From contig NZ_JAGMUK010000182.1 of assembly GCF_019049245.1 (NCBI RefSeq), forward strand, positions 122,142-186,141: 64,000 nucleotides of DNA. Reading direction: 5' to 3'. Shown in pieces: positions 33,295 to 36,236 of the stretch (position 1 is its first letter; every line of letters begins with the position of its first letter). Made by a program: the position numbers and the translations under genes. This DNA comes from Streptomyces sp. AC555_RSS877. GTDB taxonomy: Bacteria; Actinomycetota; Actinomycetes; Streptomycetales; Streptomycetaceae. Below the pieces are notes generated by a model. It saw only the letters and a list, made by a program, of their open reading frames with translations. It was not told the DNA's origin and searched no databases.

Positions 33295-34075
33295 TTATTG
33301 ACGCCGCCTCCAGGGCGTATACCCCCATTGCTCTTTGGGGGCATGGACCTCAAGCCGGTGGTCGGGGCTCTCTGGCTGGAGCCACACCTGGTAGTCGACC
33401 TCGACCCCTCCGACGGTTGGGTGTTGCAGACGCATGGTGCCCACGGTGCAGTCGGCGACGTCGCCTTTGGCCCAGAGCCTGGCGAAGTCGCCGCTGTGCA
33501 TGGAAAGTTCGCCGATCAGTTCAGCCAACCGGGCGTCGGTGCGATACCTGCCCGCGGTGAGCCGCAGGTAGGCGACATGAGCTCGAGCCAGTTCATCCCA
33601 GTTTCGGTGCAGGTCGCGGGTGAGAGAGTCGAGAAAGAACATCCGAGAGATGGACGGCCGTCGCGCGAGATCGTGAGGCGCGTCGAAGTCGACGTGTTCT
33701 GCGACGAGGGCATGTCCGGTGCGGTTCCAGACCAGTACGTCGCCACGGCGGCCGAGCACGACGGCCGGTGTGGTCTCCCCGAGGGAGGCCAGGAGTGCCA
33801 GTACTCGTGGGTGCGGCCTTTCCGGGCGGGGGCGGACCAGGCGTGAAGTGGCGGGCTGACGGGCGAGGTTGTGCAGGTGGGCGGTCCCGGCCGAATCGAG
33901 CTGGAGCACGCCTGCGAGCGCGTCCAGGACCTATGGGGAGGCTGTACTTGCCTGGCCCTGTTCCAGCCGCGTGTAGTAGCCGGCGCTCACGCCGGCGAGC
34001 TGGGCCACGGCCTTCAGCCCCGCCCCGCCACGGCGGCGAGTTCGTCTTCGGCGACCCGGCCACCTGGAACCCCCC
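33295..34075 (-). pseudogene. MmyB-type XRE regulator broken by a stop and a frameshift
   Basis: These regulators have an N-terminal helix-turn-helix and a C-terminal MmyB-like ligand-binding domain. The minus strand gives EDELAAVAGRG near 34040, then in another frame LKAVAQLAGVSAGYYTRLEQ, then ASTASP, a TAG at 33931-33933 and, in the same frame, VLDALAGVLQLDSAGTAHLH and a full MmyB domain (LVWNRTGHALVAEHVDF, NWDELARAHVAYLRLTAGRY) ending at 33295. The TAG between the two domains and the 5' frameshift would prevent a functional regulator. Confidence 0.75.
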
Positions 34076-34101: not shown

Positions 34102-34686
34102 TTACGAGCGGGACACTCCGTACGAACCCACCAGGCGGGCCAGTTGTCGGCCCGTCACGCGTAGTGGTTCCTCGCTGCGGTTGACCTGGGCCGTCACTTC
34201 GGCGCCTTCCAGGGCGCTGATGATGGTGGTCGCCAGCTCCCGGGCGTCGCGGGCCTGGAAGCCGGAGCTCCGGAGCTTGTCAGTGACGATCTGCTCCCAG
34301 TTGCGAAGCGCGTCGGCGCATGCCTGCTGGATTTCGGAGTCGGTTCCCAAGGTCTCCAGTGCCGCTGCCGTGACCGGGCAGCCGTCGGTCCAACCCGATG
34401 CGCGCAGCCCTTCGGCGAGCTGTCCGGCGCAGGCCTCTACGGCCGCGTCCGGGTCCTCCTCGCTGTTCAGAGCGTCGCGGAGGACCGCCGCGAACTCCCG
34501 GTCGCTGTACTTGATGGCGGCGACCGCGACGGCCTCTTTGCCGCCCGGGAAGAAGTGGTAGACGGAGCCCAGTGTGGCCTCCGCCTCCTTGGCGATCTGC
34601 TTGATGCCCGTGCCGACATAGCCCTGGCGCTGCAGCAGGCTCGCTGCGGCGATGACGATCCGGTCCCGGGTGCTGGCCTGTCCCAT
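34102..34686 (-). CDS. TetR/AcrR-family regulator
   Basis: The 194-residue repressor has a TetR helix-turn-helix near residues 10-55 (RDRIVIAAASLLQRQGYVGT, IKQIAKEAEATLGSVYHFFP) and a C-terminal domain of the AcrR C11-like type (GCPVTAAALETLGTDSEIQQ). The ATG at 34686 has AAGGTG five bases upstream. It is divergent from the imine-reductase-like gene, and the intergenic region holds a 17-bp repeat that is its probable operator. It may respond to an electrophile or amine-type compound. Confidence 0.9.
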   Translation of the reverse strand: MGQASTRDRIVIAAASLLQRQGYVGTGIKQIAKEAEATLGSVYHFFPGGKEAVAVAAIKYSDREFAAVLRDALNSEEDPDAAVEACAGQLAEGLRASGWTDGCPVTAAALETLGTDSEIQQACADALRNWEQIVTDKLRSSGFQARDARELATTIISALEGAEVTAQVNRSEEPLRVTGRQLARLVGSYGVSRS

Positions 34687-34703
34687 GTGCACACCTTACT
34701 GGT

Positions 34704-34765
34704 TAGAACGTTCGTTTTAGAGCTGTGCTACATTGCTCCCGCCCTGGATAGAACGCTCGTTTTAG
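34704..34765. promoter_or_regulatory. Two 17-bp operator repeats between TetR and the reductase gene
   Basis: TAGAACGTTCGTTTTAG at 34704-34720 and TAGAACGCTCGTTTTAG at 34749-34765 differ at one base and have a centre-to-centre distance of 45 bp. GAACG/CGTTC is palindromic. They occupy the divergent promoter region and are typical of TetR autoregulatory sites. Confidence 0.75.
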
Positions 34766-34840
34766 TCTCGTCCTCGCTGCGGCACCGGCTCGTGCCCGGG
34801 CGGCGGCTGGTCGTGAACACATCCCCCGGAGGTCTTCCCC

Positions 34841-35716
34841 ATGAGCGCCAAGCAGCCTGTGACCGTCATCGGACTCGGCCCAATGGGGCAGGCAATGGTC
34901 CACGCCTTACTCGGGCAGGGACACCACGTCACCGTCTGGAACCGCACTGCGTCCCGCGCAGATGCCCTCGTAGCGCGCGGCGCCGTACTCGCAAAGAGCG
35001 TCGAAGACGCCGTCGCCGCCAACGAGCTGGTCGTCCTGAGCCTCACCGACTACGGCGCGATGTACACCGTGCTGGAACCGGCGTCCCACGCCCTGACCGG
35101 CCGTGTCCTCGTCAACCTCAGCTCTGACACCCCGGAGAAGACCCGCGCCGGAGCCCGGTGGGTGTCCGACCACGGCGGGGTCCACCTCACCGGTGGCGTC
35201 AACGCCTCGCCTACCGGCATCGGACAGCCCGGGTCCTCCACCTTCTACAGCGGGCCGCGCGAGGTTTTCGAAGCGCACCGGTCCACCCTCGAGGTCCTGA
35301 CCGGCACGGACTACCGGGGCGAGGATCCCGGCCTCGCCGCGCTCCTGTACCAGATCGGCATGGTCATGTTCTGGACCTCCACGCTCAGTTACTGGCAGGT
35401 CGTCGCACTCGCCGACGCCAACGGGCTCACGGCAATGGACGTCCTCCCGCACGCCATCGAGACCATGACCGGGATGCCGGACTTCCTCTCCTTCTACGCC
35501 GAGCGCATCGACGCCGGCGAGCATCCCGGCGACGTGGACCGCCTCGCCATGGGCATGGCCAGCGTCGAACACGTTCTGCACACCAACGCCGACGCGGGCG
35601 TCGACACCACTCTGCCGGCCGCCGTGGCCGCTCTGTTCCGGCGCGGCATGGACGCCGGGCACGCGGCGGACAGCTTCTCCTGCCTGGTGGAGCTGATGAA
35701 GACGGCCAAGGCGTAG
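34841..35716 (+). CDS. NAD(P)-dependent imine-reductase-like oxidoreductase
   Basis: The 291-residue protein belongs to the 6-phosphogluconate/beta-hydroxyacid dehydrogenase superfamily. It has the Rossmann motif VTVIGLGPMGQAM and the NADP-type NRTASRA segment. The blocks VNLSSDTPEKTRAGARWVSD, HLTGGVNASPTGIG, SSTFYSGPREVFEAHRSTLE and VLTGTDYRGEDPGLAALLYQ are characteristic of actinobacterial imine reductases (IREDs), which reduce cyclic imines to amines. The C-terminal dimerisation helices are complete. The physiological substrate of such enzymes is generally unknown. AGGTC lies before the ATG. Confidence 0.85.
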   Translation: MSAKQPVTVIGLGPMGQAMVHALLGQGHHVTVWNRTASRADALVARGAVLAKSVEDAVAANELVVLSLTDYGAMYTVLEPASHALTGRVLVNLSSDTPEKTRAGARWVSDHGGVHLTGGVNASPTGIGQPGSSTFYSGPREVFEAHRSTLEVLTGTDYRGEDPGLAALLYQIGMVMFWTSTLSYWQVVALADANGLTAMDVLPHAIETMTGMPDFLSFYAERIDAGEHPGDVDRLAMGMASVEHVLHTNADAGVDTTLPAAVAALFRRGMDAGHAADSFSCLVELMKTAKA

Positions 35717-35762: not shown

Positions 35763-36236
35763 GTGACTCGACCAACGCTGAGTGGGCCATGCTGGAGCCG
35801 CTGCTGCCGTCGGCCAACAACCGGTGCGGCCGGTGGCGGGACACCACCAGGTGATCAACGAGCTTCTCCACCGGCTCAGCACCGGGGCCCAGTGGAGAGA
35901 GTTGCCCGGACGCAGTCCAGGCTCAGGCGGACGCCGCGGGCGGCATCGATGGGGACATCGATGGGGACATCATCGTCGACTCCACCTCTGTCCGCGCCCA
36001 CCACCACGCCGCTGGGGCACCCAAGGCGGCACTGCCCGCACCGCCAGATTCTTCAGGAAAGAGGGCTCCGCGAAGACCAGTTCGCGGAGCCGACGCGGGC
36101 GTCCTGGGCGGGGGCACCCACGTCTGCCTGGTCCTGGCCGATGACGCCCAAGCTCCAGACAGCTCAGGCAGTTCTCTGGTCAGGCCGCCTCACCGTCACG
36201 GCACTCGCACGGTCCGCGTCCGGGCCTGCGCTCTGA
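35763..36236 (+). mobile_element. IS5-family transposase remnant with internal deletion
   Basis: The plus strand gives AEWAMLEPLLPSANNRCGRW, then after a one-base shift HHQVINELLHRLSTGAQWRE, then a jump to IIVDSTSVRAHHHAAGAPK, the DDE-start region. A tandem GACATCGATGGG at about 35953-35978 lies at the deletion point. Both ends are undefined. Bases 36237-36349 hold nothing recognised. Confidence 0.75.

Follow-up and report, generated by a model that had tools for sequence, protein, structure and literature searches.

A YxaF-type TetR regulator gene, a pair of presumed operators and a divergent Y-type imine reductase gene as a conserved module in Streptomyces and other actinobacteria

QdoR-qdoI of Bacillus subtilis is among the closest described systems to the locus presented here. 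In the available part of PMC8481877, QdoR (the protein also known as YxaF) acts at two operators to repress the enzyme gene qdoI and also represses its own gene, with quercetin, on which QdoI acts, as the releasing ligand. For the enzyme, the nearest described proteins are S-selective imine reductases (IREDs) of the Y type, including PDB entries 4oqy, 4d3d, 4oqz and 7y8k. D-type and Y-type branches, together with a rule selecting IREDs by an Asp, Glu or Tyr, are set out in the accessible portion of PMC6120462. The literature matches listed, from searches that left subscription journals mostly outside, contained no description of a regulator or operator for the Y-type clade. A third comparison is offered by the argimycin P (arp) and streptazone (stz) clusters, whose known products include piperideines, which are cyclic imines. 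According to the part of PMC5820336 at hand, ArpDHII of S. argillaceus is an IRED that converts the imine nigrifactin to argimycin PVII, and the TetR protein ArpRII represses the arp cluster.

The window, a stretch of 64,000 nucleotides from Streptomyces sp. AC555_RSS877, carries a TetR gene and an IRED gene in divergent orientation with a short intergenic region between them. Both ORFs of the arrangement described in an earlier note on this DNA, a reductase beside a divergent TetR, are present (34102-34692 on the minus strand and 34841-35716 on the plus strand), and the features assigned are as follows.

34102..34686, minus strand: TetR gene (LmrA/YxaF [QdoR]-type repressor), 194 amino acids, ATG at 34686
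34693..34698, minus strand: putative −10 element, TAAGGT, of a leaderless TetR transcript, assigned by position
34704..34719, no strand: operator O1, TAGAACGTTCGTTTTA, kept in 72 distinct upstream regions
34726..34734, plus strand: extended −10 element TGCTACATT of the IRED promoter, between O1 and O2
34749..34764, no strand: operator O2, TAGAACGCTCGTTTTA, just 3′ of the expected IRED transcription start
34828..34832, plus strand: likely ribosome-binding site, GGAGG, of the IRED gene, assigned from sequence
34841..35716, plus strand: Y-type (S-IRED-like) imine reductase gene, 291 amino acids

A GTG at 34692 provides an alternative start for the TetR ORF (196 amino acids), and the ATG at 34686 was chosen because it is common to relatives. 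The best match to this locus among named genomes was in Streptomyces smyrnaeus (93%). Outside the module, an ORF at 33298-33909 (minus strand) carries an MmyB-like ligand-binding domain (5e−43) and lacks the usual N-terminal helix-turn-helix; upstream of it, a helix-turn-helix-like stretch, read by eye, is broken by a stop, and the regulator therefore looks broken. Directly 3′ of the IRED gene, positions 35782-36141 (plus strand) may hold a remnant of an IS4/5-family transposase, based on a DUF4096 match (7.2e−5) below the curated cut-off. A phage collection searched for a possible phage origin gave no match.

The intergenic region had been described as holding a 17-bp operator in two copies. 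The repeat TAGAACG(T/C)TCGTTTTAG occurs exactly twice between the divergent genes, at 34704-34720 and 34749-34765, 45 bp apart from start to start, and none of 100 shuffles of the window contained two matches at up to 3 mismatches. The two copies were thus recovered exactly, but their unit is a 16-bp imperfect palindrome, TAnAACGnnCGTTnTA, with half-sites TAGAACG and TAAAACG, and not only a 17-bp direct repeat. A palindromic site is expected for a TetR dimer. Across the 10.36-Mb genome to which the window belongs, the palindrome TANAACGNNCGTTNTA was found without mismatch only at the two window positions, and places with one mismatch numbered 3, against 2 for the reversed control. When the consensus of relatives was used at ≤1 mismatch, both window sites plus a single additional place were identified, compared with 3 places for the control; the scan was not above control, and no further regulon member is thus supported in this genome. 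None of the consensus places lay directly upstream of any of the genome's four IRED paralogs, which are 35 to 39% identical to the window IRED. Next to a TetR paralog with 36% identity (C144:23814) there is a copy of the palindrome with one mismatch, which could be a related operator or a chance occurrence.

Pfam identified NAD_binding_2 (PF03446; 3.7e−21) and RedAm-like_C (PF21761; 2.7e−45) in the window IRED, the latter scoring 154.2 bits against a cut-off of 27, which gives the enzyme a Rossmann NADP domain joined to a RedAm-like C-terminal domain. Its best PDB match was 7y8k (1.7e−131; 203 of 288 aligned residues identical), and it also matched 4oqy (4.3e−119) and 4d3d (1.2e−118), entries named (S)-imine reductase and imine reductase, respectively. 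Entry 7y8k was deposited under a beta-hydroxyacid dehydrogenase name, and the near-identical 7y8n is named SciR; we take 7y8k, 4oqz and SciR all to be imine reductases. In an alignment with relatives from the same genome, the catalytic column (position 187 of IRED-B) was occupied by Tyr170 in the window IRED and by Tyr in 7y8k, by Asp or Glu in the four IRED paralogs and by Lys in three distant relatives (∼30% identity). The window enzyme shares its domains and this Tyr with the Y-type S-selective entries named above. With Tyr, one of the residues of the selection rule, in place of Lys, it fits the Y-type branch as described in the available part of PMC6120462. The enzyme is probably NADPH dependent and probably reduces ring-shaped imines.

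The earlier note had named a catalytic Lys of the beta-hydroxyacid dehydrogenase kind as the finding that would speak against its imine-reductase-like enzyme. Since the column holds Tyr, this objection falls at the level of sequence, and the RedAm-like_C domain and the matches to solved IREDs bear the assignment out. That the gene encodes an ordinary beta-hydroxyacid dehydrogenase with an unrelated TetR as its neighbor could be argued from the name of 7y8k and from NCBIfam, where the only matches, including 2-hydroxy-3-oxopropionate reductase and 3-hydroxyisobutyrate dehydrogenase, were far below cut-off. This identity was rejected on account of the RedAm-like_C domain, the matches to entries named imine reductase and the Tyr170 column, in which the three relatives taken as such dehydrogenases carry Lys; the co-inheritance of the enzyme with the TetR and operators, described below, also counts against it, and we give this reading almost no credence.

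The window TetR contains TetR_C_13_2 (PF21993, LmrA/YxaF-like; 1e−33) and TetR_N (PF00440; 8.8e−9) domains. By sequence, its closest solved relative is YxaF (PDB 1sgm; 2.1e−28), and the AlphaFold model built from 25 aligned sequences (mean pLDDT, 94.3) likewise had 1sgm as its top structural match, with a Z of 25.6 and an rmsd of 1.5 across 183 residues; the next entry followed at a Z of 21.6. Domains and fold both place the protein in the LmrA/YxaF (QdoR) type, and as such it would be expected to bind palindromic operators and to be released by a small ligand. As with qdoI in the available part of PMC8481877, one enzyme gene has two operators in its promoter, judged in the window by conservation of the operator sequence, and autorepression of the kind described for QdoR there could apply to the window TetR; the likeness was judged by family, fold and operator layout. 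Unlike those of QdoR-qdoI, the window operators occupy one shared divergent promoter region, and the enzyme is an IRED instead of a quercetin dioxygenase. By analogy, the module may represent a QdoR-like switch with a different enzyme, in which the TetR would repress itself and one enzyme.

Promoter anatomy was examined across 72 distinct upstream regions, a set that admitted ≤2 mismatches per operator and whose consensus partly reflects that choice. Start-to-start spacing between O1 and O2 was most often 47 bp (37 regions), with other values mostly 40 to 43 or 45 to 48 bp and a range of 35 to 57 bp; the window has 45 bp. These spacings fall on different helical phases, and contact between the two dimers is therefore not proposed. 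A sigma-70 consensus scan returned no promoter in the window intergenic region. The motif TGnTAnnnT was located between the operators in 71 of the 72 regions, 6 bp after O1 in 57 of them. On the TetR strand, TAnnnT was found 3 to 9 nucleotides before an ATG in 55 of 72 distinct relatives (a raw count, made without a shuffled control) and 6 nucleotides before it in all 15 of the commonest classes, which is consistent with a putative leaderless TetR transcript whose −10 would be the TAAGGT at 34693..34698. By position, O1 would cover the −35 region expected for each of the two divergent promoters, and O2 would cover the expected start of IRED transcription.

From this layout we infer the following course of DNA binding, repression, release and reaction. 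Without ligand, dimers of the YxaF-type TetR would bind O1 and O2; by covering both −35 regions, O1 would let the TetR repress itself and the IRED gene, and occupation of O2 at the IRED start would tighten repression. A ligand of the cyclic-imine type would free the TetR, the IRED would be made, and the enzyme would reduce the C=N bond with NADPH. We regard it as quite probable that the module is such a self-contained inducible switch for imine reduction, comprising the YxaF-type TetR, O1 and O2 and the IRED, with a cyclic imine as the presumed ligand.

A scan of named genomes identified 40 loci, 28 with an IRED identity of ≥68% and 12 with ≤48%. The operator pair (≤3 mismatches) was present upstream in 28/28 of the former and 0/12 of the latter. 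The TetR gene adjoins the IRED gene in 24 of the 28; the four loci without an adjacent TetR keep the operator pair, and their genomes encode a TetR 55 to 58% identical elsewhere. When 295 genomes of the genus, taken as Streptomyces because records in it are identical to named loci, were scanned blindly for the pair, 53 matched, against 2 for the reversed pattern, and 51 of 55 operator-pair sites in this sample were upstream of an IRED gene. The exact pair preceded 51 of 57 IRED copies of ≥55% identity (from 56 of the 295 genomes) and none of the 18 IREDs below 55%. Degenerate pairs were found upstream of the IRED in genomes G100 and G013, and in G112, G118, G021 and G071 the IRED follows a second IRED, with neither an operator pair nor a nearby TetR of the clade. 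This comparison drew on 75 IRED, 47 TetR and 55 operator rows, with G032 (both strands) counted once; it overlaps with the named loci (one lies in G080, and the genome of two others is G189), and the two surveys are not independent. Conservation of the pair across genomes, suggested earlier as a check, thus came out strongly positive. Pair matches in G241 and G239 are at other promoters, and their first site differs in its right half; they were counted as background. In a class-wide sample, the pair was detected in 11 of 394 genomes and 6 of 137 genera, with the downstream genes checked in part.

An adjacent divergent TetR accompanied 48 of the 57 IRED copies. These comprised 42 within 400 bp at E ≤ 1e−60 and six more diverged TetRs that were added (54 to 57% identity; G166, G128, G054, G016, G261 and G013). 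The TetR gene is convergent and downstream of the IRED gene in G224, G252 and G060 and lies further off in G189 and for one copy in G070. In G112, G118 and G021, the tandem IRED genes without operator are close to an HxlR-type gene (Pfam HxlR, 4.5e−33, in G112), which possibly reflects another mode of control for this IRED clade.

Across 70 distinct adjacent pairs, taken as one row per distinct IRED, IRED and TetR distances were correlated with an r of 0.819, a value inflated by shared descent; none of 2,000 permutations reached it (maximum, 0.359). Of 33 neighborhoods, all contained the IRED and 29 the TetR, and no other family was present in more than three. In the IRED tree, the window sequence grouped with those of Streptomyces smyrnaeus and Nocardia caishijiensis (95/100), and two sequences from other genera were placed among Streptomyces sequences, that of Actinomadura with support of 95/91 and that of Agromyces less firmly. 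The module is carried by other actinobacterial families as well, and the position of the Actinomadura and Agromyces IREDs suggests its spread by horizontal transfer. A plasmid collection held five records with an IRED relative (60 to 86% identity), of which the 60% record, at 11.85 Mb, is hardly a plasmid. In four linear plasmids (IRED identities of 86, 77, 75 and 54%), the TetR gene was divergent from the IRED gene in every case.

The operator type of the module is also found before alpha/beta hydrolase genes in five genomes, with a related TetR divergent in four of them. Two sites precede the hydrolase in G254, G272 and G242 and degenerate sites in G158, each with a divergent TetR, and in G055 a pair precedes the hydrolase with no TetR nearby, the TetR of that genome being beside its IRED. 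The hydrolase of G242 has solved epoxide hydrolases as its best PDB matches. A single operator lies between the TetR gene and a divergent hydroxylase/amine-oxidase operon in G224 and G252 only. Direct operator control of the amine oxidase in G189 and G003 was considered and rejected, as the amine oxidase and TetR genes share a strand and the one operator there is in front of the TetR gene. The regulator family, as read from these sites, is therefore centered on the IRED and not confined to it. Comparison gives good support to an induction circuit, and the dedicated circuit of the earlier note stands as far as the conserved regulator, two operators, spacing and promoter element are concerned; it is not strictly dedicated within the clade, given the hydrolase and the hydroxylase/amine-oxidase operon.

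These targets bear on what the TetR may sense. The circuit could be real and the TetR a broad xenobiotic sensor (for flavonoids, cationic drugs or electrophiles), with the IRED as a general detoxification enzyme whose substrate need not be the ligand. The flavonoid sensor YxaF/QdoR being the closest solved relative is in keeping with this, as are the hydrolase genes, one of them epoxide-hydrolase-like by PDB search, and the scatter of stand-alone modules among species and plasmids; the hydrolase under the same operator type is left unexplained by a pure imine sensor. The four tandem IREDs without an operator pair, among 57, count against the inducible imine-reduction switch. On the other hand, the main partner is the same Y-type IRED clade (51/57 against 0/18 distant IREDs), which argues for specific chemistry, the ligand in QdoR/QdoI is the enzyme's own substrate in the available part of its source, and clusters of the alkaloid type contain or adjoin five of the copies. 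We consider the broad sensor a serious contender, though one with somewhat less than an even chance.

Those five copies (G189, G224, G252, G100 and G032) were identified by inspecting the surroundings of the 57 IRED copies, mostly as 20-kb stretches (shorter at contig ends) and as 10 to 52 kb for the five. They lie in or beside argimycin/streptazone-like gene sets with varying subsets of a type I polyketide synthase (PKS), a class III aminotransferase (ArpN-like), a flavin reductase (an ArpK-like gene also being reported), an ArpDHI-like, acyl-CoA-dehydrogenase-like hydroxylase (closest to HsaA in NCBIfam, below cut-off), two SnoaL-like cyclases and a flavin amine oxidase (ArpO-like). PDB matches of the last include 6-hydroxynicotine oxidases as well as 5ttj and 8dq7, two entries that bear the name amine oxidase; 5ttj is presumably the nicotine oxidase NicA2. 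All seven cluster probes were present in G189 and G100. The ArpN-like probe gave no match in G224 or G252 and the KS probe none in the G252 flank, and the G032 copy is on a 10.6-kb contig with only the PKS and hydroxylase. In G189, a distance of 17 kb separates the operator-bearing IRED gene from the TetR gene, and PKS genes fill the interval and also flank the two. Likeness to the arp gene list in the available part of PMC5300972 was judged by domain, size and order. Unlike the window IRED, which matches Y-type entries, ArpDHII has 3ZGY and 5A9S among its PDB matches in that part of the same paper.

For the remaining 52 of 57 copies, the window included, no alkaloid cluster was found in the fetched flank. 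No cluster genes of the argimycin/streptazone type (PKS, class III aminotransferase, amine-oxidase-like or HsaA-like) occurred within 20.9 kb around the window IRED, and the window module was for this reason not assigned to a cluster of that type; the closest protein to the ArpN-like aminotransferase in its genome reaches only 32% identity, over part of the length, and is no close relative. The ligand proposal thus comes from relatives and not from the window itself. Because some relatives have this cassette within argimycin/streptazone-like clusters or next to parts of them, and because an arp IRED converts nigrifactin to argimycin PVII in the available part of PMC5820336, the TetR may sense, and the IRED reduce, 2-substituted cyclic imines such as a 1-piperideine or 1-pyrroline alkaloid. 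In the window genome the cassette stands alone, and a cluster product is there a less likely substrate than imines that come from outside or arise in other metabolism.

The cluster-embedded copies could also mean that the cassette originally served piperideine polyketide-alkaloid clusters for tailoring and regulation, the stand-alone copies being functionless escaped remnants. Although a regulator ORF that lacks its DNA-binding half and a transposase remnant border the window module, both of its genes and both operators are intact, and the 72 distinct promoters, mostly from stand-alone copies, keep the two operators, their spacing and the −10, which is not expected of functionless remnants. 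With stand-alone copies making up 52 of 57, we judge this origin improbable.

Extended to the family, the inducible-switch reading would have actinobacterial Y-type IREDs paired with a YxaF-type TetR that senses 2-substituted piperideine-class cyclic imines, whose reduction would be the enzyme's natural job. We advance this only tentatively and think it rather doubtful in its full breadth; if true, the IRED would be a tailoring step in producers and, elsewhere, a stand-alone, horizontally spread protection against alkaloids of neighbors. No description of such a family-wide switch was found among the literature matches listed, from searches that left subscription journals mostly outside, and what is new here is the connection to alkaloids of the piperideine type. 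The earlier suggestion that the TetR ligand could reveal the physiological imine thus gains a concrete candidate class from the arp-like context: a compound that releases the TetR would have a strong claim to be the physiological ligand, and the class to try first is given by the cluster context. The cassette could also yield cyclic-imine biosensors and a motif for finding regulated IREDs in genomes.

Several further arrangements were observed. Arp-like clusters in G268 and G211, with a PKS, two amine oxidases, two HsaA-like hydroxylases, a flavin reductase and cyclase-like genes, carry another IRED type and lack this TetR/operator pair, which speaks against a simple form of the ligand proposal; their IRED is 37 to 38% identical and, in the one aligned, Asp type. 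In Herbidospora yilanensis (locus L039, 6001-6705), the IRED match begins at residue 51, close behind the operators, and its N terminus is either missing or affected by an assembly error. In Nonomuraea candida (locus L181, 5433-6332), the TetR gene and operator pair precede a 64-amino-acid, internally deleted IRED remnant. The same genome encodes an intact IRED at another locus, which has an operator pair of its own, and the regulator has been kept after loss of the adjacent enzyme.
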